NCBI RefSeq assembly: GCF_019448255.1
Contig: NZ_CP080410.1
Location: forward strand, 682,001 to 746,000
Direction of reading: 5' to 3'
Length of the DNA stretch: 64,000 bases
DNA from: Qipengyuania flava
GTDB lineage: Bacteria > Pseudomonadota > Alphaproteobacteria > Sphingomonadales > Sphingomonadaceae
Of this stretch, positions 1 through 14,525 are shown in pieces (the first letter of the stretch is position 1; each line of letters starts with the position of its first letter). The notes beneath the pieces are model-generated. The model was not told where the DNA came from and did not search any database. It was given only the letters and a program-made list of their open reading frames with translations. The position numbers and the translations under genes were made by a program.

Positions 1-1488
1 TTCCCGCCAGCCGCCTCGACCGTGGGCCTGGAAAGCGGCCCGCTGTTCGGTGTCCAGTTCAGCCAGCTGCCCTGCTCGGACCTGTCGGCGCGGATGAGCG
101 ACGGGATGATCGGACCGCAACGCTCGCCGCTTGGCCTTTCGGCCGATCCCGGAGGCTTCCCGCTCTACAAGGACGGGGTGGTCGTCGGCGGCATCGGTGT
201 TGCAGGCGACGGCGTCTACGGTTTCCACCCGGACACGATCAACCGCGACCGGGACGACGAGGAATACGCCGCCCTTGCGGGTACGCAGAATTTCACCCCG
301 CCGCGCTGGATCGAAGCCGACCGGATACCGGTGGACGGCACCAGCCTGCGGTATCGCGACGCCGCCGCCAGCGAGCTCGGGCCTCTTCAGACCAGTTTCG
401 GAGCCGTGAACGGCCCCGCCGGCGGTCTCGTTTCGGTGTTCGGCTACACCAACGGGGCCATCCGCGCGGGCGTGGCTTACGGAACGAATGCCTCGGGTAT
501 CCGGCGCAGCACATCGAGCGAGTTCGCAAATCCGGATGCCTATGTGCTGGTCAACGGGGCAGGGGCACCGCGCTTCCCGATCCGCGGGGGCACGGATGGC
601 GCCAGCATCAGCGCTCCGCTGAGCGCCGCGGAAGTGCGCGCCGTGCTGGAAGAGGCCTTCACCGTACTCAGCCGCGCGCGGGCCCAGATCCGCCGCCCCC
701 TGGACAGCCGGATGCAGGCGACGATCAGCCTCGTCGATACGCACGGCGCGGTGCTCGGCATCGTGCGGTCGCCCGATGGCCCGATCTTCGGGACGGACGT
801 CTCGCTCCAGAAGGCGCGCACAGCCGCGTTCTTCTCCAATTCGGTGGCGGCCGGGGACATGCAGGCTGCGGGGCCCACCATCGCCCGCTACGTAACCCGG
901 GTGCGCGATTTCCTCGGCGATGGGAGCGCCCTGACCGGTACCTTCGCCTTCGCCGACCGGTCGGGTGGCAACCTGTCGCGGCCCTATTTCCCTGATGGCG
1001 AGGTCGGCACCATCGCGGGACCCTTGTCGGTGGAACGGCCGGGCCAGTTCAGCCCCTTCATGACCGGGCTGCAGACCGACCTCATCATCCCGAACCTCTT
1101 CCAGCACCTCGGCTTCGTGATCTCGGGCGGGGGCAGCGCCGACACGCCGCGCGGCTGCACGCAACTGCCCGATGCACCCGGCGGCGGGAAGCGTGTGGGC
1201 AACGGCATCCAGATTTTCCCGGGCTCTGTCCCGATCTACCGCGGCAATGAGCTTGTCGGCGGGATCGGGGTGTCGGGCGACGGGATCGACCAGGACGACA
1301 TGGTCAGCTTCCTCGGTCTTCACAACGCGGGCCAGCGCGTTGGCGGGATCGGCAACGCGCGCGTCGAAATCCGCGCAGACCGGATCGTGGTCAACGTGAA
1401 CGGGCGCGATGTGCGCCTGCGCTACGTGAATTGCCCCTTCGCGCCGTTCCTCGACGATCCGGCGCAGAACGTCTGCGAGGGGCTGTGA
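1..1488 (+). CDS. GlcG/HbpS-like putative heme-binding protein, two-domain, 5' partial
   Basis: The reading frame is open to the left edge, so the N-terminus and any signal peptide lie outside the window. A GTG at 22 is only an internal candidate start. The visible ~495 residues contain the same motif twice, a short strand of the type P-[LI]-Y-[KR] followed by VGGIG[VA][SA]GDG: once near residue 50 and again near residue 410 (counted from base 22). A central stretch (LVDTHGAVLGIVRSPDG, then QKARTAAFFS) resembles the GlcG/HbpS (DUF336) fold, some members of which bind heme. The stop codon overlaps the ATG of the next gene (TGATG), so translation is probably coupled to the barrel and decaheme genes downstream. 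I infer a periplasmic or extracytoplasmic heme- or redox-binding role. Fold assignment is moderately sure; function is not. Confidence 0.7.
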   Translation, partial: FPPAASTVGLESGPLFGVQFSQLPCSDLSARMSDGMIGPQRSPLGLSADPGGFPLYKDGVVVGGIGVAGDGVYGFHPDTINRDRDDEEYAALAGTQNFTPPRWIEADRIPVDGTSLRYRDAAASELGPLQTSFGAVNGPAGGLVSVFGYTNGAIRAGVAYGTNASGIRRSTSSEFANPDAYVLVNGAGAPRFPIRGGTDGASISAPLSAAEVRAVLEEAFTVLSRARAQIRRPLDSRMQATISLVDTHGAVLGIVRSPDGPIFGTDVSLQKARTAAFFSNSVAAGDMQAAGPTIARYVTRVRDFLGDGSALTGTFAFADRSGGNLSRPYFPDGEVGTIAGPLSVERPGQFSPFMTGLQTDLIIPNLFQHLGFVISGGGSADTPRGCTQLPDAPGGGKRVGNGIQIFPGSVPIYRGNELVGGIGVSGDGIDQDDMVSFLGLHNAGQRVGGIGNARVEIRADRIVVNVNGRDVRLRYVNCPFAPFLDDPAQNVCEGL

Positions 1489-3338
1489 TGCTGGCGGGCG
1501 CTTTCATGCCGCTGGCGCTGGTGGTCGCAGCGCAGCAGGAACTGCCGCCGCAGGAAGAACCGGCCAGCGAGTTGCCGACCGTCAATCCCGAACCGGGCGA
1601 GCCGCCTGCCGTCGACAACGAAGTGATCGATGGCCGCCGTCGCCCCGATTACACCGAACCTTTGCCGGACGAGGTCTCGCAGACAAACGAGGGCGCGGTG
1701 CGCGCCCCGCCGCCCGAAGCCTTTCCCGTCGATCAGATCCCGATCCCGGACCGCTGGCGGCTGATCGAAAGCCTTGGCGTGGTCAAGGAACGCTGGTGGG
1801 ACCCCTACAACCAGAACACCTACAAAGGCGACCGGCCGATCAATCCGGACAAGGTCCCCTGGCTGCCGATCACCGGCGACGACTGGTTCTTCATTGCCAA
1901 TGCGGTGAGCGACACGGTGTTCGAACCGCGCACCTTCCCGATCCCCGTCGGCGTGCAGACCACCGAGCGCCCCGACAGCCTCGACGTTTTCGGCAAGGAT
2001 GCGAGCTATGTCCTGTCGCAGACCTTCATTGTCGGCGCGGCGCTGCTCAAGGGGAGCACCGCTTACAAGCCGCCCGATGTCGAATACCGTGTCACGCTGG
2101 CGGCGAACCTCAACTATGTCGACGTGCCCGAGCGGCGCGTTCTGTTCGTCGAACCGAGCAAGCCCTCGCACCGCTTCGACCACTTTGTCGGCGTGCAGGA
2201 AGCCTTCTTCGACTACCACTTCCGCAACGTGTCCGACCGCTACGATTTCGACAGCGTGCGCATCGGGATCCAGCCGTTCCAGGCCGATTTCCGCGGCTTC
2301 CTGTTCAACGACAACCAGCTTGGGGTGCGGTTCTTCGGTACGCGCGACAACAACCGCTTCCAGTACAATTTCGGCGGCTTCTGGCGGCTGGAGAAGGACA
2401 CCAACAGCGGGCTCAACGCGATCCTTCAGACCCCGCGCGACGATTACGTGTTCTACGTCAACGCCTACCGCCAGGACTTCCTGATCCCAGCGCTGACCAG
2501 CCAGCTGACCTTCGTGTGGAACGCCAACCGCGAGAGCGACGACGTCCAGATCGACGACAACGGCTTCCCGGTTCGTCCGGCCTTGCTCGGCTCGCTGCGC
2601 GGGCGCGAGTACGATGCGTTTTACATCGGCTACAACGCTGATGGCCGGATCGGGCGGATCAACCTGACGGGCAGCGCCTATTACGCCTTTGGCGAGGACC
2701 GCAATTCCTTCTTTACCGACCGGCCCGCCGACATCAGCGCCTTCTTCGCCGCGCTCGAGGCGAGCTATGACCGGGACTGGATCCGCTTCCGGATATCGGG
2801 CGCCTACGCCAGCGGCGACGGCGATCCGTATGACGACAAGGAAACCGGCTACGACGCGATTTTCGAGAACCCGGTCTTTGCCGGCGCGGACACCAGCTAC
2901 TGGATACGCCAGACCATTCCCTTTGCCGGTGGCGGCCGCGCGATCAGCGTCAACGGACGCAACGGCATCCTCAATTCGCTGCGCAGCTCCAAGGAACAGG
3001 GGCAGTCGAATTTCAACAATCCGGGCCTGATGCTGCTTGGGGTGGGTGCCGATTTCGACATCACCCCGGAATTCCGCCTTTCGGCCAACGCGAACCATTT
3101 ATGGTTCGAGAATACCGCCACGCTTCAGGCGCTGCGCAACGAGGGCTCGATCCCCAAGGAGATCGGCTGGGACCTTTCGGCCGCGGCGATCTGGCGGCCC
3201 AAGGCGACGCAGAACATCGTGTTCCGCCTGTCCGCCGCCGCGCTCATATCGGGTGACGGCTTCGACGACCTGTTCACCTCCCTCGGCAATCCGGGCGCCT
3301 ATTATTCGGTGCTCGCCAACGCGATCCTGACCTACTGA
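1488..3338 (+). CDS. Outer-membrane beta-barrel protein, candidate porin partner of the decaheme cytochrome
   Basis: The ATG at 1488 overlaps the upstream stop and gives a 616-aa protein with a short hydrophobic N-terminal signal (MLAGAFMPLALVVAAQ), followed by an acidic, proline-rich linker to about residue 60. The rest consists of alternating hydrophobic/polar strands rich in Tyr, Phe, Asp and Asn with short turns, the usual look of an outer-membrane barrel. It ends in ANAILTY, an aromatic-terminated last strand. I recognise no named porin family. Its stop overlaps the start of the decaheme cytochrome (TGATG), so the two are co-translated, as in porin-cytochrome gene pairs. By that analogy it could be the sleeve holding a cytochrome in the outer membrane. 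It could also be an unrelated outer-membrane channel. Confidence 0.72.
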   Translation: MLAGAFMPLALVVAAQQELPPQEEPASELPTVNPEPGEPPAVDNEVIDGRRRPDYTEPLPDEVSQTNEGAVRAPPPEAFPVDQIPIPDRWRLIESLGVVKERWWDPYNQNTYKGDRPINPDKVPWLPITGDDWFFIANAVSDTVFEPRTFPIPVGVQTTERPDSLDVFGKDASYVLSQTFIVGAALLKGSTAYKPPDVEYRVTLAANLNYVDVPERRVLFVEPSKPSHRFDHFVGVQEAFFDYHFRNVSDRYDFDSVRIGIQPFQADFRGFLFNDNQLGVRFFGTRDNNRFQYNFGGFWRLEKDTNSGLNAILQTPRDDYVFYVNAYRQDFLIPALTSQLTFVWNANRESDDVQIDDNGFPVRPALLGSLRGREYDAFYIGYNADGRIGRINLTGSAYYAFGEDRNSFFTDRPADISAFFAALEASYDRDWIRFRISGAYASGDGDPYDDKETGYDAIFENPVFAGADTSYWIRQTIPFAGGGRAISVNGRNGILNSLRSSKEQGQSNFNNPGLMLLGVGADFDITPEFRLSANANHLWFENTATLQALRNEGSIPKEIGWDLSAAAIWRPKATQNIVFRLSAAALISGDGFDDLFTSLGNPGAYYSVLANAILTY

Positions 3339-6300
3339 TGCGCGCGCTCTCCCGCCTCTTCCTCGCGATCGGCCTGATGCTCCTGGCAGGGGCCATGGGC
3401 CTGCGTGCGGCGGAAAAGGAAAAGCCGGTCAAGCGCGACTACAGCCTCGTTACCGCCGCTCCCGCGCCGCGCATCCAGACCGAAGAGCAGATGGCGGCGA
3501 AGTCGGCTGGGTGTTTCTCCTGCCATGTGCGCACCGACGAGCCGACGATGCACGAGACGCCCGCCGTCCGGCTTGGCTGTGTCGACTGCCATGGAGGCAA
3601 TCCCAATGTCTTCGGCGACAGCGAATTGTCGCATGACGATGTGGCCTACATCGCGGCGCGCGATGCGGCCCATGTCCTGCCGACCTATCCCAAGAGCTGG
3701 CACTGGCCGTCCTCGGCCAATCCCAAGCGGTCCTATGCGCTGCTCAACAAGGAAGACCCGGTCTTCATCCGCTTCGTGAACCCCAGCGATTACCGCGTGG
3801 TGCGCGAGGCCTGCGGCGCATGCCATATCGAGACGATCGAGGCGGCCGAGCGTTCGATCATGGCTTCAGGGGCGATGCTGTGGGGCGGGGCGGCCTACAA
3901 TAACGGGATACTGCCTTTCAAAAGGTATATCCTAGGCGAAGCCTATACCCGCGACGGCAAACCGGCGAAGATCGAGAGCCCCGGCGCACCGCCCGCTACG
4001 CTGACCGAAAACCAGAAGGCGCGCGGAGCGATCGAGGCGCTCTACCCCATGCCGACCTGGCATGTGATCCCGCCGGCCGATGTCTTCCGCGTGTTCGAAC
4101 GCGGCGGCCGCAACGTGGCATCGCAATTCCCCGAAGTCGGCATCCCTAACCCGACCGGCCTCATCCAGCGGCTGGAAGAACCGGGCCGGCCCGATCTCAA
4201 GCAATCGAACAGGGGCCCGGGCACGGGGCTCCGCGTCGCGATCCCCGTGCTCAACATCCACAAGACCCGGCTCAACGACCCGTTCATGTGGTTCATGGGC
4301 ACGAACGACCAGCCCGGCGATTATCGCCATTCGGGCTGCGCAGGCTGCCATGTGGTCTACGCCAACGACCGCGAGCCGCGCCATTCGCTGACCTACGCAC
4401 AATACGGACGCGACGGGCAAAGCGCGACCGTGGACCCGACCATCGCTTCGCTGCTCGAGGGCGGCCACGGCGACGGCGAGGGATATGGCAGCGGTCACGG
4501 GGCGGTGAAGAAGCCCGGGCATTCGGACGACGAGCCAGTGAAGGAAAAAGGCCACCCGATCCGGCACAGCTTCACCCGGTCGATCCCGACCGCGCAGTGC
4601 ATGAACTGCCACATGCACCAGCCCAACATCTTCCTCAATTCCTACCTCGGCTACACCATGTGGGATTACGAAAGCGATGCGCCGCACATGTGGCCCAAGG
4701 AGCAGAAGTATCCCACGGCAAAGGAGGTCCGCGCCGTCCTCGATCGTAATCCGGAAGGGGCCGCGCCGAAGGGCAAGTGGGCCGACCTCGATTTCCTGCG
4801 CAACGTCTACGATCTCAATCCCGATCTCAGCGACACGCAGTTTGCCGATTACCACGGGCACGGCTGGAACTTCCGTGCGATCCTGAAGCGCGACCGTGAG
4901 GGGAACCTGCTCGACAAGGACAACAACATCGTCCCGCACGACGATCCGGAGAAGTGGCGGCGCGAGGGTGAGGGCAAGTTCGTCGAGGTCGGGGTGAACC
5001 CGGGCAAGACGGTCCACATGATGGACATCCACGCCGAAAAGGGCCTCCAGTGCGCCGACTGCCACTTCGGCCAGGACAGCCACGGCAACGGCCTCATCTA
5101 CACCGAGGTCGCCAACGCGGTGGAGATCGGCTGCAAGGACTGCCATGGCACGGCGGATGCCTATCCCACCCTGCGGACCAGCGGCCCGGCTGCGCCGCCC
5201 AAGGGCACCAACCTGGCGCTGCTGCGCAATCCCGATGGCAAGCGCCGGTTCGAGTGGGCCTATGGCGAGGATGGCCGGCAAGTGCTCATCCAGCGTTCCA
5301 TTGTCGATCCCGACCTCGAATGGGAAGTCAGCCTGACTCGCGAAAGCGTCGATCCCACAGCGCGCGATTTCAACGCCAAGTCGGCGCGCGCCAAGCTGAT
5401 GAGCCGGACGGGCGCCGAAACCGGCCGGTTCGAATTCGGCACCGGGGTCGCGCCCGAAGACCGCGCGCATGGCACGGAAGAAATGGCCTGCTTCACCTGC
5501 CACCTTTCCTGGACCACCAGCTGCGGCGGGTGCCACCTGCCGATCGAGGCCAACTGGAAGACCAAGTCGCACCACTACGGCAGCGAGGAAACGCGCAATT
5601 TCGCCACCTACAATCCGCAGGTCGCGCGCGACCAGATGTTCCAGCTCGGCCGCCACCAGACGACCAAGGGCAACCAGGTCGCCCCGATCCGTTCAACCAG
5701 CGCGCTGGTGCTGTCTTCGACCAACATCAACCGCGAACGCATCTATGTGCAGCAGCCGCCGGTCGCGGCGAGCGGCTATTCGAGCCAGGCCTTCGCGCCG
5801 CACTTCCCGCACACCGTCCGCTTGACCGAGACCAAGACTTGCAGCGACTGCCATCTCTCGGCCGCGGAAGACAACAATGCGATCATGAGCCAGCTGCTGC
5901 TGCTCGGCACCAATTTCGTGAACTTCGTCGGCCTCAACGCCTGGGTCGGCCTCGACACTGGCTTCGAGGCGGTGCGCGTGACCGAATGGGACGAGCCGCA
6001 GGCGGTGCTGGGCAGCTACCTCCACCGCTACGCCTACCCCGACTACTGGCGCATGCACGTCGAGGACAACGACCGTGAGCTCAAGGACTGGGTGCGTGGC
6101 AAGACCTTCGATGGGGACGTCAGCGGCGAGACCAAGGCCTTCGAACAGTTCGCCAATGTGCACGAGGGCACGCGCGACGGCGTCGGCTGCCTGCAGCTGC
6201 GCGGCGAATACATGTTCGTCGCCGAAGGGAAAGGCGGCTTCCGCGTCTACGATGTGGCATCGATTGCCAACAAGGGCGTCTCCGAACGCATCCTCACCGC

Positions 6301-7456
6301 TCCCTTCAGCGCCATGGGGCACGACACGCGGGTGAAGACGAAGAACGCCACTTGCATGGCGCTCGCCACCAACCAGCCGGTGCGGCCAGACCGCAACAAG
6401 GCCATGGCCGCGACTCCGGTGAACGATGCCGAGGGGAACCCGGTCTTCAACGAAGACGGCACGGCGATGACCCTGCTGCAGGTCAACCAGGAACAGCCGA
6501 TGAAGCCGATCTACGATTACGCGGTGATCACCGATGCAGTCGAAGGCCTCGTGCTGGTCAATGTCGAGACGATGGCCGACGGCGAGTTTCGCAACAACAA
6601 GCTGAAGCGCTCGCGCTTTGCCGATGGCAGCAAGGCGTGGAACCCCGACGGCGTGCTCGATGGCGCGCGGCACATAACGCTTGCCGGCGACATCGCCTAT
6701 GTCACGGCCACGGCCGGTCTCGTCACCATCGACCTTGCCAATCCGCTGGATCCGCAGCTGACGTCGGTGCGCCTGCTGGCCGATGCTCGCGCTTCGACAA
6801 TCCAGTTCCGCTACCTCTGGGTCACCGACGCGGACGGCGTGAAGCTGTTCGATGTCACCGATATGCGAGAGCCCGTTGCCGTGCCTCAGGCGACCGTGCC
6901 GTTGGCCGATGCGCGGCGGGTCTATGTCGCGCGCACCTATGCCTATGTGGCGGCCAAGCAGGACGGGCTGGTGATCCTCGATGTGACCCGCCCGCTGTCT
7001 CCAAAGGTCTACCAGCGCGTGACGCTCGATGGCGCTCTGAACGATGCCGAGGACGTGATCGTCGGCTCAACCAACGCGACGCTCTTCGCCTATGTCGCCG
7101 ATGGACGAAACGGGCTCAAGGTGCTGCAACTGACGACGCCGGACAGCCAGCCCAATTTCTACGGCTTCAGCCCTGCGCCCAAGCCCGAACTCATCGCCTG
7201 GGCCAAGACCAAGGGCGCTGCCCTGTCGCTCAGCAAGGGGCTCGACCGGGATCGCGGGGTGGACGAGACCGGCGGGCAGATGGCTGTGTTCGGCCGGCTC
7301 GGTTCGCGGCCCTTCAACCGCGCCGAAATGGAAAGGCTGTTCCTCACGCGCGCAGGTGTGCCCTGGAAGGTCTCGGACGAGCCGGACATGAGCGCGTGGG
7401 TCGGGGGTAGCGGCCCCTGGCTGGACCGCAGCCGGGCGGCGATGGGCGGTGACTAG
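3338..7456 (+). CDS. Secreted decaheme c-type cytochrome with C-terminal LVIVD repeats
   Basis: The protein has 1372 aa and starts with a signal peptide (LFLAIGLMLLAGAMGLRA, residues 7-24). Ten CXXCH heme-attachment motifs start near residues 59, 81, 159, 334, 421, 572, 599, 718, 729 and 835. From about residue 965 to 1260 come repeats of the LVIVD type (for example GGFRVYDVAS, GLVTIDLANP, GVKLFDVTD, GLVILDVTRP, GLKVLQLTTP), which are predicted beta-propeller-like blades. A His/Gly-rich insert lies near residues 370-410. Multiheme proteins of this kind carry electrons outside the cytoplasm; the propeller could bind a partner or the substrate. I recognise no known reductase subfamily. The gene closes the plus-strand operon and meets the phosphodiesterase gene tail to tail with only 3 bases between the stops. 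Confidence 0.88.
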   Translation: MRALSRLFLAIGLMLLAGAMGLRAAEKEKPVKRDYSLVTAAPAPRIQTEEQMAAKSAGCFSCHVRTDEPTMHETPAVRLGCVDCHGGNPNVFGDSELSHDDVAYIAARDAAHVLPTYPKSWHWPSSANPKRSYALLNKEDPVFIRFVNPSDYRVVREACGACHIETIEAAERSIMASGAMLWGGAAYNNGILPFKRYILGEAYTRDGKPAKIESPGAPPATLTENQKARGAIEALYPMPTWHVIPPADVFRVFERGGRNVASQFPEVGIPNPTGLIQRLEEPGRPDLKQSNRGPGTGLRVAIPVLNIHKTRLNDPFMWFMGTNDQPGDYRHSGCAGCHVVYANDREPRHSLTYAQYGRDGQSATVDPTIASLLEGGHGDGEGYGSGHGAVKKPGHSDDEPVKEKGHPIRHSFTRSIPTAQCMNCHMHQPNIFLNSYLGYTMWDYESDAPHMWPKEQKYPTAKEVRAVLDRNPEGAAPKGKWADLDFLRNVYDLNPDLSDTQFADYHGHGWNFRAILKRDREGNLLDKDNNIVPHDDPEKWRREGEGKFVEVGVNPGKTVHMMDIHAEKGLQCADCHFGQDSHGNGLIYTEVANAVEIGCKDCHGTADAYPTLRTSGPAAPPKGTNLALLRNPDGKRRFEWAYGEDGRQVLIQRSIVDPDLEWEVSLTRESVDPTARDFNAKSARAKLMSRTGAETGRFEFGTGVAPEDRAHGTEEMACFTCHLSWTTSCGGCHLPIEANWKTKSHHYGSEETRNFATYNPQVARDQMFQLGRHQTTKGNQVAPIRSTSALVLSSTNINRERIYVQQPPVAASGYSSQAFAPHFPHTVRLTETKTCSDCHLSAAEDNNAIMSQLLLLGTNFVNFVGLNAWVGLDTGFEAVRVTEWDEPQAVLGSYLHRYAYPDYWRMHVEDNDRELKDWVRGKTFDGDVSGETKAFEQFANVHEGTRDGVGCLQLRGEYMFVAEGKGGFRVYDVASIANKGVSERILTAPFSAMGHDTRVKTKNATCMALATNQPVRPDRNKAMAATPVNDAEGNPVFNEDGTAMTLLQVNQEQPMKPIYDYAVITDAVEGLVLVNVETMADGEFRNNKLKRSRFADGSKAWNPDGVLDGARHITLAGDIAYVTATAGLVTIDLANPLDPQLTSVRLLADARASTIQFRYLWVTDADGVKLFDVTDMREPVAVPQATVPLADARRVYVARTYAYVAAKQDGLVILDVTRPLSPKVYQRVTLDGALNDAEDVIVGSTNATLFAYVADGRNGLKVLQLTTPDSQPNFYGFSPAPKPELIAWAKTKGAALSLSKGLDRDRGVDETGGQMAVFGRLGSRPFNRAEMERLFLTRAGVPWKVSDEPDMSAWVGGSGPWLDRSRAAMGGD

Positions 7457-7459
7457 GCC

Positions 7460-8314
7460 CTAGCGGCGCTCTTGCTTCATTTCCCGGATCATGGGCTTCA
7501 GGTGCTCCCCGTAATAGGCCAGCACGTCCCAATCGCCGCAGCTCTCGTAATGCGTGATCAGGTCCTGCCCGTTCCAGTAATGCAGCGCGTAACTGGGCGG
7601 TTCGGTCGTGATAAGCGCACGGTTGTCGGCCCGGTTCTCATCGACGGGGCGCAGGTCGAGCGCCACCAGCGGTGCGACCGAGGGCGTGATGCCCAGCGGG
7701 ATGCCGCGAAAGCATGCGCTTACCCGCCGGTGCAAGTGCCCGCAGTGGATGCCCCGGATCGCATTCTCGTGACCCTCTACCGCTTCGGCAAAGTGGGTGA
7801 TCCACTGTTCGTCCGCGGCCGGATCCATCCAGTCTATCCCGCTGACAATGGGTGGGTGGTGCATGAAGATAACGCAGGGCCGCCCCTGACCGTCTTCAAG
7901 CTGCGCACGCAGCCAGTCGCGCCGCTGCTCGCAGAAGGCGCCGCCGTGGCGTCCTTCTTCGAAGGTATCGAGGCAGATGATGCGCAGGCCATCGCGCTCG
8001 ATAACGTAGTGGAGGAACCCCGTCCCATCGTCCGGCGTGCCGGGAAAGGCCTTGCGCAGCTCTTCGCGGGTGTCGTGATTCCCGACCAGCGGAAGCACAG
8101 GGCAGGGAAAATCGGAGAGGATGGCGGCGATCTTCTCGAAGCTATCCTGGTCGCCGTGATCGGTAAGGTCACCCGATAGCAGCAGGAAATCGAGCGTGTG
8201 CGGCGCCTTCTCGAAACGGTCGAGAACCTGCCGGAAACGGATCCGGTTGAGCTCTTCCGGACGCGCATCGGGATCAAAGCCGATGTGGATGTCGGTGATC
8301 TGGGCGATCAGCAA
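7460..8314 (-). CDS. Class III cyclic-nucleotide phosphodiesterase-like metallophosphoesterase (CpdA-like)
   Basis: This calcineurin-like metallophosphoesterase has 284 aa and the full set of metal-binding motifs: TDIHIG at the N-terminus, SGDLTD, GNHD, MHHPP and GHLH. The order and spacing match the CpdA/GpdQ class, which hydrolyses cAMP or glycerophosphodiesters. No ATG fits; I chose the TTG at 8314 because it directly precedes the conserved LIAQITDIH strand and has AGGAG six to eight bases upstream. It lies 31 bases downstream of the FHA-decaheme gene on the same strand and is probably the last gene of that operon. The operon also encodes a protein with two cyclic-nucleotide-binding domains, so I infer that it lowers a local cyclic-nucleotide signal. 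Substrate is not proven from sequence. Confidence 0.85.
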   Translation of the reverse strand: MLIAQITDIHIGFDPDARPEELNRIRFRQVLDRFEKAPHTLDFLLLSGDLTDHGDQDSFEKIAAILSDFPCPVLPLVGNHDTREELRKAFPGTPDDGTGFLHYVIERDGLRIICLDTFEEGRHGGAFCEQRRDWLRAQLEDGQGRPCVIFMHHPPIVSGIDWMDPAADEQWITHFAEAVEGHENAIRGIHCGHLHRRVSACFRGIPLGITPSVAPLVALDLRPVDENRADNRALITTEPPSYALHYWNGQDLITHYESCGDWDVLAYYGEHLKPMIREMKQERR

Positions 8315-8345: not shown

Positions 8346-10109
8346 TCATTCGGTCCCCTTTCGCCGGGACGACAGGCGGACGACGCGCTCGGCCTGTTCT
8401 TCGACCGGGGCGTCCTCACGCCGCTGGAAGGTCGGGGGATGGTAGCTGTGGCACATCGCGCATGTCGAGGGGACGTCGGCCTCGATCGCTTCGGCGCCCT
8501 GATGGCATTCGCGGCAGGTGGCGAGCGTCGGCAAGATGACGTCGCGCGCGCTGCTCGATGTGTCGGCGGCGTGGCAGCTGGTGCAGTCTTCCTGCTCATG
8601 CGCCTCGTGGTCGAAGCGCCCGTTGAGGAAATAGCTGCTGCGCTGGAAGACCGGCATGACCGTGGCCTCCCCGCCAACGGTCGTGGGCACATGGCATTCG
8701 CCGCAAACACCGCCTTCCGACAGTGCGCGGGTAATGCCGATGTAGTTCTGGGTCGGCCTGCCGAACTCGAGGAAATAGCGCCCGCCGCGCTTGAATTCGC
8801 CCGGTCGTCTTAGCCCGCTGGTGATAGGCGAGCGCGGCGCGCGGTCCATGGCGATCAGATCGGCCCGCATGGCGGCAACGTCGCCATGGCGCAGGCTGCG
8901 GAAGGTCGACCCGACCTTGTCGTAGACAAGGCTGTGGCAGCTTTCGCAATCGCTCTCCATCTCAACGGGCAGGAAGCCGTTGCGGTCGTCGGTCGGGCGG
9001 TGGCAGTCGGAACAGACCAGCGCTTCGCCGTAATCGGGAAGGTTACCCGCCATCCGGGCGACTCCGTTGGTCTTGGACAGGTGCATGTCATGGGGGAAGC
9101 GCAGGCCGTGCTCTTCGCGCGCCTTGCCGTCGAGGGTTACTCTCTTCGTCTCGCCTTCGCCAAGCGTGTGATGCACCAGCGCCTGCAGTTCGGGATGGTG
9201 GGTGCCAAAGTCGTGCGCGTTGCCGAGCGCGGTGTCGGTGAGGCGAGTGTCCATGTCGAGATGGCAGCTGGAGCAGAATTGCTGCGCGGCTGGCTCCATG
9301 CGCCCAGCGCCTTCGTGCTCGGTGTGGCAGGTGGTGCAAGCCTCCGGGCCTTCCTTGCCAAAGGCGTCCGCGACTTGCCACAGCAGCGCATCGCCGGTGG
9401 GGAAGGGGCCGCGCGAGATGGCGAGGCGATCACGCCCGGCGTGGTCGCCGATATCCTTGTGGCACGTCAGGCAGGTCTCGTCGCGAACCGACACGAAGGG
9501 CTCGACGTGGCATGCCTCGCAATTCTGTTCGAGAGCGTGATGGGCCTTGCTGAGCTTGCCCGTGCTCCAGCTCGCGTCCCACATGACCTGGTCTGCGTCG
9601 TAGGCACCGGGCTGCTTCTCCTCGCGGGTCAGGTTGGTCCAGATCGGGACCACGAGGAACGCGCCGAGTATGACGAGCACCCCGATCCACGCCGCGACCC
9701 GCTTGCTCGGCATGGCGGAGGCGAGGTCGAAGCCGCGCACGGCATCGCGGTTTCCGAATTCCTTCTCTTCGCGCGTGACGCTTACGAGGACCTGTCCGTC
9801 GCTCTCGCGTGAGAAGGCGAGGGTGTAGACGCCGAGCAGCAGCGCGCCTCCCTTCGCCGGATCGAAGGTGACCGACGTGCGCTTCGACCCATCGAACGTG
9901 AAATCGCGGTTTGACGCAGCGCTCATTTCGAGACGTCCGCGGTCGGTTTCCTCGACTTTGACATGGTGCTGTTCGACCGCGAGATCGGGCACGACGATAT
10001 CGTTGCTGGTGGCCCGGCCGATGGTCAGCGTGTCGCCGTCCACGGACCGTTCGCGCAGGATTTCGCGCCCGGTGGCGGTGTGATCGATCGTGCGGATGAG
10101 GAAGGTCAA
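8346..10109 (-). CDS. FHA domain-transmembrane-decaheme cytochrome fusion protein
   Basis: The protein has 587 aa with three parts. Residues 1-115 form an FHA fold with the GR-x-x-SNDI motif (residues 31-38) and a HH pair at 48-49; the usual Ser before the first of these is replaced (VEQHH). Residues 138-157 are one membrane helix. Residues 190-560 carry ten CXXCH motifs, starting at C197, 213, 258, 279, 366, 388, 469, 509, 532 and 550. The layout places a phosphothreonine-type recognition domain in the cytoplasm and a decaheme domain in the periplasm. The start is TTG at 10109 with GGAG seven bases upstream, ten bases after the cytochrome b stop. I infer a quinone- or cytochrome b-linked periplasmic electron carrier. 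I know of no named protein with this architecture. Confidence 0.88.
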   Translation of the reverse strand: MTFLIRTIDHTATGREILRERSVDGDTLTIGRATSNDIVVPDLAVEQHHVKVEETDRGRLEMSAASNRDFTFDGSKRTSVTFDPAKGGALLLGVYTLAFSRESDGQVLVSVTREEKEFGNRDAVRGFDLASAMPSKRVAAWIGVLVILGAFLVVPIWTNLTREEKQPGAYDADQVMWDASWSTGKLSKAHHALEQNCEACHVEPFVSVRDETCLTCHKDIGDHAGRDRLAISRGPFPTGDALLWQVADAFGKEGPEACTTCHTEHEGAGRMEPAAQQFCSSCHLDMDTRLTDTALGNAHDFGTHHPELQALVHHTLGEGETKRVTLDGKAREEHGLRFPHDMHLSKTNGVARMAGNLPDYGEALVCSDCHRPTDDRNGFLPVEMESDCESCHSLVYDKVGSTFRSLRHGDVAAMRADLIAMDRAPRSPITSGLRRPGEFKRGGRYFLEFGRPTQNYIGITRALSEGGVCGECHVPTTVGGEATVMPVFQRSSYFLNGRFDHEAHEQEDCTSCHAADTSSSARDVILPTLATCRECHQGAEAIEADVPSTCAMCHSYHPPTFQRREDAPVEEQAERVVRLSSRRKGTE

Positions 10110-10119
10110 GTCTTGCTCC

Positions 10120-11016
10120 TCACCAGTAATAGAACACGCTGACGATGTGCGCGGAGAGCGCTGCCAAGAGGGCGATCGTCAAGGGGACGTGGATGTAGAG
10201 CCAGATTTCGAGCATGGCCTTGGTCTGCATCTGGCGGCGGATTTGGTCGATCTGGGCCGCTCGTTTTCCGAGCAGCGAGCGCACCTTCTGCTGGGCGGCG
10301 TCCTCGCCGACTGCGTCATAGGCGCGGCTGGCCGAAATGTGGGCGAGCGCGCGGCGCGTGGCATCGCCCGCGCCGGGACCGCGAAAACGTGCAATCAGCC
10401 CCGTTTTGAAAACGTCCTGCTCCAGCGCGGCAACCACCACATCGGTGTCCTCGCGTGACAGCGGCTGCGCGGCGGTTTCAAGCTGCTTGTCGATCGCCGC
10501 AAGGCTTTCGAGCATCTGCTCTCGGGTCATCTCGCGACGGTTTTCGGACAGGGTCTGCGGCAGGGTGGCATAGACCGTAATGCCATAGGCGCCCGAGATG
10601 ATGACCAGCATCATCAGCACCCAGGCCAGCGTATGGACGTTCCAGCCGAGCTGGAAGCCGGTGTGCATGGTGCCGATGACAGTCAGCGAAAGACCGAGAT
10701 AGACATGCGCGCTGGTCCAGGCCTTCAGGCTCCAGCTGCCTGGAGTGGCGCGGCGTTTGCGAATGCCGAGCCAAGCCAGCCAGACGATCAGACCCGCGCC
10801 GATGGTGCCCAGCGTGTAGCCATACCAGCTCCCGCCATTATGCCGCGGTTCGACATCGACGAGCAGGTAGGTCACCACCACGAACAGGCCGATGACGGCG
10901 GCCGCCTTGGCCCAGTAATAGCTGCGATGCGCAAGGAAGCCTTCATGGTCGGCCGAGCGCCGGGCCTCGATCTCGGCGAAGTCATCGTCCTGATCGTGCG
11001 AGAAGAGCGAGGCCAT
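10120..11016 (-). CDS. Integral membrane diheme cytochrome b-like subunit
   Basis: The protein has 298 aa with about five hydrophobic helices near residues 36-53, 65-84, 103-120, 128-151 and 271-297, split by a polar loop at 155-265. Two helices each carry two histidines exactly 14 residues apart, H104/H118 and H276/H290, with H128 in addition. This spacing is typical of bis-His b-heme ligation in NarI- and cytochrome b561-type proteins. The ATG at 11016 shares its A with the TGA of the upstream flavoprotein/ferredoxin gene (TGATG), so the two are translationally coupled. I infer that it takes electrons from the [4Fe-4S] part of that protein and passes them, directly or through quinone, to the FHA-decaheme protein made from the next gene. 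Confidence 0.82.
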   Translation of the reverse strand: MASLFSHDQDDDFAEIEARRSADHEGFLAHRSYYWAKAAAVIGLFVVVTYLLVDVEPRHNGGSWYGYTLGTIGAGLIVWLAWLGIRKRRATPGSWSLKAWTSAHVYLGLSLTVIGTMHTGFQLGWNVHTLAWVLMMLVIISGAYGITVYATLPQTLSENRREMTREQMLESLAAIDKQLETAAQPLSREDTDVVVAALEQDVFKTGLIARFRGPGAGDATRRALAHISASRAYDAVGEDAAQQKVRSLLGKRAAQIDQIRRQMQTKAMLEIWLYIHVPLTIALLAALSAHIVSVFYYW

Positions 11017-13466
11017 CAGTCGACCTCCTCTTCGAGACGGGCAACGGTAAGGAAGCGCTCGGGACTGACGCGGATGGCGGCGCCCGTAGGGCACGCCCGC
11101 ACGCAGGCCGGTCCGCCGTCGATACCGCTGCACATGTCACACTTGATGGCGAGCTTTGCCGTTTCGCCTGCTTCTGCCGCCTTGCTCTTGCGCCAGGCAT
11201 AGCTCGCTTCGCCCGGCCCCGGTCCGCGGCCGAACAGGAGCCAGCTGAAGAGGCCCGGCTTTTCCGGCGGCTTGGCGTCCATCCGGATGACGCCATAGGG
11301 GCAATTTCTCTGGCAGTTGCCGCAGCCGATGCAGGTCTCGTCGATCACGACCTCGCCGTCTGGGCCGCGCTTGATCGCATTCGGCGGGCAATCGGCCATG
11401 CAATGTGGATGCTCGCAGTGGCGGCAAGAGGTGGGCACGTGGAGATGCGCGTAGGTCTTGCCCGCTTCGCGGTCGAGGCGGCTCAGACCATCGTGGCTGT
11501 CGGCGCAGGCCTTCTCGCAATTGTCGCAGCCTACGCAGAGCTTTTCGTCGATCAGAAGGACATCGGTGGCCTCGCCAAGGCCGTTGTCAACCAGGAACTG
11601 GGCGGTCTGGGAATACATGTCGACCGCGCCGCCAAAGCTCGATTTGCGGCTTTCGACGAAATCGTTGATTTCGCGCCGGGCCGCCATGGCCTTCAGCGCG
11701 TCTTCCCGGATCTCTGGCTTTGAATCGAGCAGCTGATTGAACGCGTCGCCGGGTATCCGGATGACTTCGCTCTTGATGGCGGCGCGCACGCTCGCGGTCC
11801 GTTTCGACCCGTCGATGACGGCCATCTCGCCGAAATAGGAGCCTGCGGGTAGGTAGGACAGGAACACCGGCTTTCCGCCGAGGTTCTTCTCCACCACCAT
11901 CGAACCGACCCGCACGATGAAGATGTCCTTGTCGTCGGCCCCCTCCTCGATGACGACCTCGCCCGCCGGTACCGAGACCACTTCGGAGGATTCAACCAGC
12001 TCCGCGACGTCCTGGGGGACCAGCCCCGAACCGAAAATCTGGAGGATCTGCCGTTCGATCGAGATCCGGTTCACTGCCCGGTTGGCCGATGGCGCCGTCG
12101 CCAGGAGCTTGAGCGCCGCGAGCCGGGAGAATTCGACCGCCACCGTTTTTTCAGCGGCGCGCACGGTCGAGCCGCGCTTGCGGCCGGAGATCAGGCCCAC
12201 TTCGCCGAAGATCGAACCGGTTTCGATCGGCACGGTCACCGAGCTGTCGTGTTCGTCGACCTCGACCAGAACCGATCCCTCGGCAATGGCGAACATCGAG
12301 GAGCCGGGCTCGTTGCGCGCAAAAATCTCCTCGCCGCGGTCGAAGGCGTGCACCGTGCTGTCGAGCATCAGCTCGCGAAGCTGCAGCGGGCTCAACTCGC
12401 GCAGGATCGTGACTTCGCTCGCGAAGGTGTGGAGCCATTCGTCCACCGACCGGTTGCCTGGCAACCCTGCGAATTTTTCCGCCAGGATCGGCTCATCGGC
12501 GGGCTTGAGCTCGGTATTGCCGTCCAGGAATTCGATGACGTCATAGCCCTGGTTCATGCAGTGCTTGATCAGCGGATAACCGGCCAGGGCACCGATCACA
12601 TGGATTCCCGCCTGGGTCGTTTCGAAGCTCGGACTGAGCTTGGGAAAGGCCGCGCGGTCTTCGCTGGAGAACTCGACACCGCATTCCTCGACAAATGCGC
12701 GCGGTGGCTGCGATCCGGTGCGCGCGATGATCCGGTCGCAGCGGATTGTCTCCTGCCCGTCGCGGGTTTCCAGCACAATCTCCCCGTCGCGAATCTCGAC
12801 CGGACTGGTCTCGCGCCGCACCGAAATCCGCCCGTCCGCTTCGGCCTCTTCGAGAAGCTTGACGTTTGCCCCCTTAGCGCGCGCGAAATCGGCGCGGCGG
12901 TTGAGGATGGTGACACGGTTGCCCTGCGCCTCATCGGCCGCGAGCCCGAGGGCGTTCTCGATTCCCGCATCGCCCGAACCGATGACGGTGATGTGCTCGT
13001 CCACATATTCGGTAGGATCGTCGAGCTGGTACTGGACGTGGGGCAGCTCCGCGCCGGGCAGTTTCAGGAGGTTGGGATTGCCCTGCGTGCCGATGGCCAT
13101 AACCACCGATTCGGCCTCGACTGTGGAGCCATCCTTCAAGGTCAGCGTGAAAGACCCGGCCTGCCCCGAAATACCGGTGACTTCGGCGTTGGTCTTTACG
13201 GTGACCTTGCCCTCGGCGACCTGGCGGTCCCAGGTCTCGAGAATCGCCTCGCGCTTGCCGGCGTCGAAATCGAGATCGCTGCGCAGCACCAGGTTGGAGG
13301 GCGTCGCCATGACATGCTTGCCCTTCTGGTACTTGTAGATTGTATCGGAAAGGTGGTCGGTCTTCTCGAGGAGGACATGGCTCATGCCCTTTGCTGCCGC
13401 ATGGGCAGCAGCGCTCAGCCCGGCTGGGCCGGATCCGACAATAGCAACGCGAACTTTCTCCGCCAA
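11016..13466 (-). CDS. Flavoprotein oxidoreductase fused to two cNMP-binding domains and a four-cluster ferredoxin domain
   Basis: One 816-aa chain combines three modules. Residues 1-320 are a two-Rossmann flavoprotein: GSGPAG at 11-16 for FAD, a second GSGDAG for NAD(P)H, and MAIGTQG. Residues ~345-460 and ~480-600 are two cyclic-nucleotide-binding domains, each with a phosphate-cassette-like segment (FGEVGLISGRKRGSTV and FGEMAVIDGSKRTASV). Residues 640-800 are a NrfC/HybA-like ferredoxin domain with CVGCDNCEKAC (C644), CRHCEHPHCMADCP, CIGCGNCQRNCP and CDMC...CVRACP, enough for four [4Fe-4S] clusters. No signal peptide, so cytoplasmic. The start is TTG at 13466, just before the first beta strand. 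It heads the minus-strand operon. I infer NAD(P)H-linked electron input, with activity gated by cyclic nucleotide. Confidence 0.9.
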   Translation of the reverse strand: MAEKVRVAIVGSGPAGLSAAAHAAAKGMSHVLLEKTDHLSDTIYKYQKGKHVMATPSNLVLRSDLDFDAGKREAILETWDRQVAEGKVTVKTNAEVTGISGQAGSFTLTLKDGSTVEAESVVMAIGTQGNPNLLKLPGAELPHVQYQLDDPTEYVDEHITVIGSGDAGIENALGLAADEAQGNRVTILNRRADFARAKGANVKLLEEAEADGRISVRRETSPVEIRDGEIVLETRDGQETIRCDRIIARTGSQPPRAFVEECGVEFSSEDRAAFPKLSPSFETTQAGIHVIGALAGYPLIKHCMNQGYDVIEFLDGNTELKPADEPILAEKFAGLPGNRSVDEWLHTFASEVTILRELSPLQLRELMLDSTVHAFDRGEEIFARNEPGSSMFAIAEGSVLVEVDEHDSSVTVPIETGSIFGEVGLISGRKRGSTVRAAEKTVAVEFSRLAALKLLATAPSANRAVNRISIERQILQIFGSGLVPQDVAELVESSEVVSVPAGEVVIEEGADDKDIFIVRVGSMVVEKNLGGKPVFLSYLPAGSYFGEMAVIDGSKRTASVRAAIKSEVIRIPGDAFNQLLDSKPEIREDALKAMAARREINDFVESRKSSFGGAVDMYSQTAQFLVDNGLGEATDVLLIDEKLCVGCDNCEKACADSHDGLSRLDREAGKTYAHLHVPTSCRHCEHPHCMADCPPNAIKRGPDGEVVIDETCIGCGNCQRNCPYGVIRMDAKPPEKPGLFSWLLFGRGPGPGEASYAWRKSKAAEAGETAKLAIKCDMCSGIDGGPACVRACPTGAAIRVSPERFLTVARLEEEVD

Positions 13467-13601
13467 ACCGCAGTCCCCCCCCGGAGGCTTGCGAACCCAT
13501 TGTTCTTGTTATCGCTAGGGGCATCATAGGCGAAACGCGCCGAGAGGCAATTGCCAGTCCCGATCCGTGCCGATAGCCATGCAGTCAGGGAGGAGAAGGT
13601 G

Positions 13602-14525
13602 ATGGTCGAAGACACGAGCGCGAAGCGACCTGGCGGCGGAAAAATCCTGTTCGGCCTCGGCCTGGCTGCCGTTCTAGCAGCGCTTGGCTACCGCGCGTTC
13701 CAGGATGGCGAGGTGGAGGAAACGGCAGGGGAGACCGCTGATCCCATCGCGGTTCTCGAAGAGCGGGTGGGCGAGCAGCCGGCCGATGTCGCTGCCTGGC
13801 AGGAACTGGCCTTTGCGCGTTTCGAACGCGGCGAGTTCACTGCTGCTGCGGCGGCCTATCGCGAAGCGGCGCGCCTCGACCCGGAGGAAGCCGTCTTGTG
13901 GTCGGCGCTGGGCGAAGCGCTCGTGATGGCCAGCCAGCGCGATCCCTTACCGCCCGACGCCCTCGCTGCGTTTCGCAAGGCCGTGGAGCTCGATCCGGCC
14001 GATCCGCGGGCCCGCTATTTCCTCGCTGTGAAACGCGATCTCGACGGGGATCATGACGGCGCGCTTGGCGCATGGCTCGATCTTATGGAAGACACGCCCC
14101 CCGGCGCGCCGTGGGAGAGCGACCTTGCGCGAACCATCGAACAGGTAGCCACGATAAACGGTATCGATGTGTCATCGCGGCTGGAGCGCGCAATGGCTGC
14201 GCGCAGCGTGCAGGCGCCTGCCGCTCCGGGCGGCGCATTTGGGGCAGGTGACGCCATACCGGGACCATCGGCCGAACAGGTCGCCGCCGCTGCCTCGATG
14301 GCGCCCGGCGAGCAGCGCCAGATGGCCGAAGGCATGGTCGCGAGCCTGGAAAGCAAGCTTGTGGCCGACCCAAGCAATGTCGATGGCTGGGTGATGCTGA
14401 TGCGATCGCGCATGACGCTCGGCCAGCCCGATCGTGCGCGCAAGGCGCTCGCCGATGCGGTCGCCGCGAACCCTGCTGCAGCCCCGCGCCTCAGGATGCA
14501 GGCCGAAGCGCTCGGCATACGCTAG
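13602..14525 (+). CDS. CcmI/CycH-like TPR cytochrome c biogenesis protein
   Basis: The protein has 307 aa with an N-terminal membrane anchor (about residues 12-30, ILFGLGLAAVLAALGYRAF) followed by TPR helices (WQELAFARFERGEFTAAAAAYREAARLDP and similar) and a C-terminal TPR pair. Anchored TPR proteins of this build act as CcmI/CycH, holding apocytochrome c for heme ligation. The ATG at 13602 has GGAGGAG about 7 bases upstream. The gene is divergent from the flavoprotein operon across 135 bases and sits beside 20 c-type heme sites, which fits a maturation job for the cluster. The rest of a ccm operon is absent here, so this may be an extra, dedicated copy. Its stop overlaps the flippase stop on the other strand by four bases. 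Confidence 0.75.
   Translation: MVEDTSAKRPGGGKILFGLGLAAVLAALGYRAFQDGEVEETAGETADPIAVLEERVGEQPADVAAWQELAFARFERGEFTAAAAAYREAARLDPEEAVLWSALGEALVMASQRDPLPPDALAAFRKAVELDPADPRARYFLAVKRDLDGDHDGALGAWLDLMEDTPPGAPWESDLARTIEQVATINGIDVSSRLERAMAARSVQAPAAPGGAFGAGDAIPGPSAEQVAAAASMAPGEQRQMAEGMVASLESKLVADPSNVDGWVMLMRSRMTLGQPDRARKALADAVAANPAAAPRLRMQAEALGIR

Follow-up and report, generated by a model that had tools for sequence, protein, structure and literature searches.

A cyclic-nucleotide-binding flavoprotein-ferredoxin fusion as a candidate electron-entry subunit of a predicted trans-envelope conduit

What is known of bacterial cyclic AMP (cAMP) concerns mainly transcription factors. A 64,000-nucleotide stretch of the Qipengyuania flava genome (contig NZ_CP080410.1, positions 682,001 to 746,000; the window) raises the question whether a cyclic nucleotide can act directly on an electron carrier. 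An open reading frame (ORF) on its minus strand (11016-13466) encodes, in a single chain of 816 amino acids, a flavoprotein, two cyclic-nucleotide-binding (CNB) domains and a ferredoxin with cysteines for four [4Fe-4S] clusters. The reading that we favour, and hold to be fairly probable, is that this fusion forms the cytoplasmic end of a trans-envelope conduit, where electrons enter, and that cAMP or, less likely, cyclic GMP (cGMP) switches it through its CNB domains. If this is true, a receptor covalently joined to flavin and iron-sulfur clusters would allow electron flow to be controlled without new protein synthesis, and a predicted, uncharacterised extracellular conduit would gain its cytoplasmic end, making its electron donor and its on-state testable.

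The fusion and its conserved residues

The ORF starts with TTG. Its N-terminal part is an FAD/NAD(P)H domain of the two-dinucleotide-binding type (12513-13457, minus strand, residues 4-318) with the motifs GSGPAG and GSGDAG, matched by the Pfam family Pyr_redox_3 at residues 9-292 (E = 6e-34). CNB1 (12093-12389, minus strand, residues 360-458; cassette FGEVGLISGRKRGSTVRA at 12156-12209) and CNB2 (11721-12017, minus strand, residues 484-582; cassette FGEMAVIDGSKRTASVRA at 11781-11834) follow, found by Pfam as two cNMP_binding stretches (E = 1e-31), with PF00027 scores of 67.0 and 51.9 bits against a curated cut-off of 27.5. The C-terminus is an NrfC/HydN-type ferredoxin (11049-11558, minus strand, residues 637-806) matched by Fer4 families, among them Fer4_11 (pfam13247; 44.8 bits, cut-off 26.2). 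Its 16 invariant cysteines (644, 647, 650, 654, 681, 684, 689, 693, 712, 715, 718, 722, 776, 779, 788 and 792) would bind four [4Fe-4S] clusters. The predicted model of the fusion has a mean pLDDT of 76. A preliminary description of the window had proposed this one-chain architecture, and both the Pfam domains and the conserved homologues bear it out.

On the sequence evidence the ORF is neither a chance product nor a frameshift artefact, because near-full-length matches (E < 1e-200) recur in 26 of the 289 genomes sampled from the class (one of them, in G007, fragmented) and in 15 of the 398 sampled from the phylum, the own genome being counted in both. The closest named relatives belong to Erythrobacteraceae and other Sphingomonadales, with up to 80% identity. 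Scanning GTDB genomes for two peptide patterns of the flavoprotein yielded at least 525 stretches that resemble the query (E 1e-3), and these need not all be full fusions. The 80 loci kept from it (the named loci) match nearly the whole query, and their titles give Sphingomonadales genera or only higher-rank names.

Conservation was assessed in two alignments. A1 consists of the window plus 35 relatives, which are 42-89% identical and come from the own class and other classes of the phylum (35 of 38 other sequences, leaving out L019, L031 and the truncated L034); A2 is a second, closer set of 75 sequences, made up of the window plus 74 from the 80 named loci (L054, L071, L089, L108, L111 and L120 left out). 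All 16 cluster cysteines are invariant in 36/36 sequences of A1 and 75/75 of A2, window counted, as are G421, E422 and R431 of the CNB1 cassette and G546, E547 and R556 of the CNB2 cassette; the glycines of the FAD and NAD motifs are invariant in 36/36 sequences of A1. Both CNB domains thus keep the phosphate-cassette arginine that the preliminary description had pointed out, and the loss of cassette residues in homologues, which it had named as counting against its claim, was looked for and the residues were found kept. After the cassette arginine, ligand-binding CNB domains typically have a small residue followed by alanine (R-[STAQ]-A). CNB2 fits this pattern with R-T-A; CNB1 of the window departs from it with R-G-S, and R-x-A occurs in 34 of the 36 CNB1 sequences of A1 (by eye).

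The other CNB domains of the same cell served as a control. Among nine CNB hits in the own genome, inspected by eye, only CNB1, CNB2 and L003, a regulator of the CRP type, retain Gly-Glu as well as Arg; the other six lack Gly-Glu, Arg or both. By sequence, then, an intact cassette is not the default among the CNB domains of this cell. Degenerate CNB domains are ruled out by this control and by the invariant cassette residues in both alignments. It is possible but doubtful that the two domains hold a cyclic nucleotide permanently or act as a scaffold, for dimerisation or docking to the membrane subunit, and exert no dynamic control. CNB folds can be structural; a pure scaffold would not predict invariant ligand residues in both copies. 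Compared with solved structures, the tandem domains match the multi-CNB protein PCR12 first, followed by PKA and PKG regulatory chains, nucleotide-gated channels and CAP. They share the cassette residues with the PKA and PKG tandems and CAP; those proteins act on a kinase or on DNA binding, whereas the CNB domains of the fusion would act on a flavin/iron-sulfur chain.

The own genome encodes a second CNB-flavoprotein fusion (L005:220-1890; G000 C1 near 1071289), a 557-residue protein with a CNB domain followed by a thioredoxin reductase (TrxR)-like part; it is without the cassette arginine.

The flavoprotein part had been called thioredoxin-reductase-like, which holds for its fold. The best structural match of its model (residues ~2-319) is the bacillithiol disulfide reductase YpdA (Z 31.1, 308 residues aligned, rmsd 3.1 to 7a76_D), followed by TrxR (Z 28) and FNR2 (Z 26); the fusion misses the cut-off of NCBIfam TIGR04018 (137.9 vs 339.9 bits). 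Thiol reduction does not hold. The redox cysteines are a CxxC in TrxR and a single cysteine in YpdA; no CxxC occurs in the aligned flavoprotein region of A1, and the YpdA position is Ala15 in the window and a cysteine in 3 of the 36 sequences. A thiol reductase is ruled out by these two absences and, therefore, electrons should leave the flavin straight to the iron-sulfur clusters, by analogy with the TrxR-type ferredoxin-NADP reductases. The fusion has its fold in common with these enzymes and YpdA, and differs in that its flavoprotein is joined to CNB domains and a ferredoxin. The ferredoxin part matches chains of formate hydrogenlyase subunit 2, HycB and NrfC (7z0s, 7qv7 and, for NrfC, 2vpw) and misses the NCBIfam equivalog cut-offs for NrfC (41.8 vs 377.6) and HydN (61.8 vs 260). 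It has 16 cysteines, like the four-cluster ferredoxin subunits HydN, HycB, DmsB and NrfC; unlike them, it is one domain of a single chain that also contains an NAD(P)H flavoprotein.

A proposed route from the ferredoxin across the envelope

The fusion is the first of four tightly packed genes on the same strand, which presumably form an operon. The next gene (10120-11016, minus strand, 298 residues), whose start overlaps the stop of the fusion (TGATG), encodes a b-type cytochrome or inner-membrane protein (IMP) with two WX3HX13H motifs and one SGXXG. Its putative heme ligands His104, His118, His276 and His290 are invariant in 94/94 aligned sequences (alignment A3 being made up of the window and 51 of these cytochrome b sequences); WX3HX13H occurs twice in 93/94 and SGXXG in 80/94. 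The predicted model is mostly helical (mean pLDDT 73). A sequence search with the protein yielded nothing credible, and a Foldseek search with the model gave no match with E up to 0.001; the best VIA match (Z 10) fell on helical bundles and is uninformative. Gene order was counted in the named loci with enough flanking sequence for each count and in 20 more distant regions. The cytochrome b gene lies directly downstream of the fusion in 76/76 named loci and 18/20 distant regions (L140 and L148 being without it), and in two genomes of one other genus (L049 and L050) cytochrome b is fused to the C-terminus of the fusion (29% identity, E = 1e-40, and 27%, E = 4e-43). Of all the evidence, this natural fusion speaks most strongly for a passage of electrons between the ferredoxin and the b hemes. 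The preliminary description's electron input module gains support from the cytochrome b that adjoins the fusion and is joined to it in one genus; that the direction is input is a prediction from sequence.

The third gene (8346-10109, minus strand) encodes an FHA-like domain, one transmembrane segment and a cytochrome c with ten CxxCH motifs, and lies downstream in 71/71 named loci and 18/20 distant regions. Its FHA-like domain could be a phospho-dependent input on the same conduit. Convergent to the genes of the fusion, on the plus strand, are a large multiheme cytochrome c (3338-7456) with an N-terminal hydrophobic segment, ten CxxCH motifs and C-terminal LVIVD repeats, a presumed outer-membrane beta-barrel porin (1431-3338, 635 residues) and the 3' part of a gene for an HbpS-like protein (22-1488) that starts left of the window. 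The presumed porin has no Pfam match, and its barrel is suggested by its context and C-terminal aromatic residue. The presumed porin is part of the locus in 47 of 64 named loci; among the 20 distant regions, HbpS-like proteins were matched in 12, porin-like ones in 11 and outer cytochromes in 10, many of these matches being at the border of the stretch. In a sample of 197 genomes of the window's order (completeness at least 95), 49 have the fusion and exactly these 49 have the large outer cytochrome, although in 23 of them the two genes are separated by more than 15 kb or fall on two contigs. In G565, G608 and G800 the matched outer cytochrome stretch contains one in-frame stop, by sequencing error or decay.

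In the route that we propose, NAD(P)H would reduce FAD, from which electrons would run through the four [4Fe-4S] clusters, two inner-membrane b hemes and the ten-heme cytochrome; by way of the presumed porin and the large outer cytochrome (1431-7456) they would then reach an acceptor outside the cell or in the periplasm. The outward direction is by default the downhill one. The same conduit might run in reverse, from an extracellular donor such as a metal or an electrode through the cytochromes and the fusion to NAD(P)+, or from cytochrome b to quinone, again with a cyclic-nucleotide switch; we regard this as unlikely. The structural neighbours of the flavoprotein include TrxR-fold ferredoxin-NADP reductases, which work both ways. 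For typical extracellular donors, reducing NAD(P)+ is generally an uphill reaction that has to be driven, and nothing seen here would supply the drive. In favour of reversal, an inward flow to the quinone pool has been proposed for the clusters PCC3 and PCC4 in the main text of He et al. 2017 (PMC5566968).

PCC4 is a putative porin-cytochrome cluster described in 2017 as a predicted extracellular electron conduit (He et al. 2017, PMC5566968). According to the main text, it comprises a porin, 4-, 5- and 10-heme cytochromes and an IMP with two WX3HX13H motifs and SGXXG; in its subgroup II a pfam13247 gene lies upstream of the IMP gene, and in one species both are annotated as one gene. The present system shares the porin (presumed here), the 4- and 10-heme cytochromes, the IMP motifs and a pfam13247 iron-sulfur gene upstream of the IMP, and the single gene of that species resembles the fusion in L049 and L050. 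It differs in its outer cytochrome, which combines ten hemes with LVIVD repeats, and in the absence of a 5-heme gene from the own cluster, where the cytochromes have 4, 10 and 10 hemes; L141 carries 4-, 5- and 10-heme genes. Hydropathy gives three strong segments for the cytochrome b, against five transmembrane helices for the PCC4 IMP. The terms 'cyclic nucleotide', 'FAD', 'crp' and 'adenylate' each occur zero times in the main text of PMC5566968. The PCC4 iron-sulfur gene is probably this fusion or a relative of it, as judged from that text. The system would then be a variant of a conduit that is itself only predicted. No description of a flavoprotein-CNB-CNB-ferredoxin architecture was recognised among the matches listed from the open-access literature.

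The cyclase, the phosphodiesterase-like gene and a proposed switch

Left of the window, on the plus strand, lie genes for a tetraheme c554-like cytochrome, a 247-residue protein and a membrane cyclase of the CHASE2-class III type (G000 C1:677187-679280, same strand as the HbpS-like gene; PF00211 46.6 vs cut-off 21.9 bits, CHASE2 90.7 vs 26.3). The closest solved relatives of the cyclase are a bacteriophytochrome-adenylate cyclase chimera and CyaB; on these and on motif rules, its product is probably cAMP rather than cGMP. The fourth gene of the presumed operon (7460-8314, minus strand) encodes a calcineurin-like (class III) phosphodiesterase-like protein with the motifs DIH, GD, GNH and GHLH, whose closest solved relative is Rv0805. 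It misses the NCBIfam cut-offs for SpdA (142.2 vs 400) and CpdA (77.5 vs 225). Of the named loci long enough to show it, 65 of 67 have this gene downstream. The link is seen in the window's order and was not found beyond it in any of 19 distant regions, within 5.5 kb of the fusion; one of these regions, L150, carries a homologue some 7.5 kb off.

A class III cyclase is present in 75 of the 197 genomes of the order sample, in 49/49 with the fusion against 26/148 without it. Within the own genus it occurs in 5/5 genomes with the fusion against 2/15 without. In smaller counts a cyclase is present in one of 14 fusion-less relatives, and in 47/48 (48 of 49 named genomes, L089 left out) and 34/34 genomes that carry the fusion. 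When cyclases no further than 30 kb away are counted in the 49 genomes, the fusion has one in 29, the outer cytochrome in 34 and at least one of the two in 40. By the same distance, 29 of the 48 named genomes have a cyclase near the fusion (1.6 expected under random placement), and among 22 others nine do (1.7 expected); 12 of the 34 other genomes, mostly cyclase-rich, and one fragmentary second hit of G226 were left out of these distance counts, and the former omission could raise the near-fusion proportion. The samples overlap, so that the counts are not independent: at least 10 of the 48 named genomes share fusion coordinates with members of the 49, and seven of the 22 others are among the 49. 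G677, G680, G681 and G699 each have a single cyclase, 1.3-3.5 kb away from the fusion, and at the matching loci (L090, L097, L098 and L129) this cyclase is closer to the other cyclase of the own genome (53-55% identity) than to the linked one. The contrast within the genus and the different linked cyclases argue that cyclase and fusion may have become associated repeatedly. A pure scaffold would not predict the difference between carriers and non-carriers.

Direct cyclic-nucleotide control of electron entry is thus plausible and has strong genomic support, because the cassettes are kept, a cyclase is often linked and present in every carrier of the order sample, and a phosphodiesterase-like gene is a neighbour in the window's order. 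The preliminary description's central claim is in this way partly supported. In the switch as we picture it, the cyclase, often at or near the cluster, would make cAMP once its sensor is triggered; cAMP would fill the tandem CNB domains, which are placed in the chain between the flavin and iron-sulfur domains; the filled domains would change the docking of these two so that electrons pass; and the phosphodiesterase-like protein would reset the signal. Whether the whole amounts to a self-contained, sometimes plasmid-borne module, in which the cyclase writes, the fusion reads and the phosphodiesterase erases a signal gating a trans-envelope conduit post-translationally, we judge to be evenly balanced.

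It is very improbable that the fusion is mainly a redox sensor, whose flavin or cluster state would alter cyclic-nucleotide binding and hence the free cAMP pool, electron transfer being the signal. By the cassette pattern only one other PF00027 protein of the cell, the CRP-type regulator, looks like a cAMP receptor, and a phosphodiesterase-like gene adjoins; both speak for a sensor. An electron carrier fits better with the redox chain that follows, with the cytochrome b fused on in one genus and with the occurrence of the fusion in the same genomes as the outer cytochrome.

Several observations weigh against a cAMP-switched entry subunit. The phosphodiesterase-like gene is within 5.5 kb of the fusion in 0 of the 19 distant regions with room for it, and its product scores higher with SpdA, a 2',3'-cNMP enzyme according to NCBIfam, than with CpdA. 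Downstream, the outer cytochrome is found less than 10 kb away in no more than 50 of 64 named loci. The cyclase occurs in 26 genomes of the order sample without the fusion; in 20 of the 49 carriers the fusion has no cyclase within 30 kb, and in nine neither the fusion nor the outer cytochrome has one at that distance. Another gene on the same strand ends 109 bases before the cyclase of the own genome, and the cyclase may therefore belong to a different transcript that starts further left. The genomes are related, so that p-values overstate the association; neither the random-placement expectations nor the Fisher tests take kinship into account. In the predicted fusion model the ferredoxin part is mostly below pLDDT 50, too poor for interdomain geometry. 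Lastly, the main text of He et al. 2017 (PMC5566968) suggests that quinone may be the electron partner of the cytochrome b.

Among known signalling systems the closest parallel is the cAMP network of Sinorhizobium, which likewise uses CHASE2 cyclases. An SpdA-like phosphodiesterase is also common to the two. The receptor in Sinorhizobium is the transcription factor Clr, whereas the candidate receptor here is an electron carrier.

Distribution, a sister family and neighbouring genes

The fusion genes occur in named, cultured strains of Novosphingobium, Sphingobium and Erythrobacter, which puts experiments within reach. Twelve Sphingobium plasmids carry the fusion, and on one of these, typed as conjugative, the neighbouring cytochrome genes are present too. 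This is pMSHV of Sphingobium herbicidovorans (L157), whose incomplete annotation table lists the cluster as a 'cyclic nucleotide-binding domain-containing protein', a 'hypothetical protein', cytochromes and a metallophosphoesterase, and names no cyclase closer than 16 kb to the fusion. A phage origin was considered and rejected: 20 phage records match, none over more than 80% of the query, and they do so through the ferredoxin or the flavoprotein part.

A sister family of about 575 residues combines CNB domains with a four-cluster ferredoxin and has no flavoprotein (two loci, L036:655-2382 and L038:1306-3021). It is followed by a short cytochrome b of its own, in which WX3HX13H occurs twice; CxxCH proteins are encoded in the same stretches. 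Its first CNB domain keeps G-E and R-T-A. With this family, second-messenger gating would, if it holds, be a general design.

On the other side of the fusion, a divergent gene for a CcmH/CycH-type TPR protein (13551-14525) adjoins it, with a possible role in cytochrome c maturation. Among the matches listed, a homologue occupies the equivalent place in most named loci.

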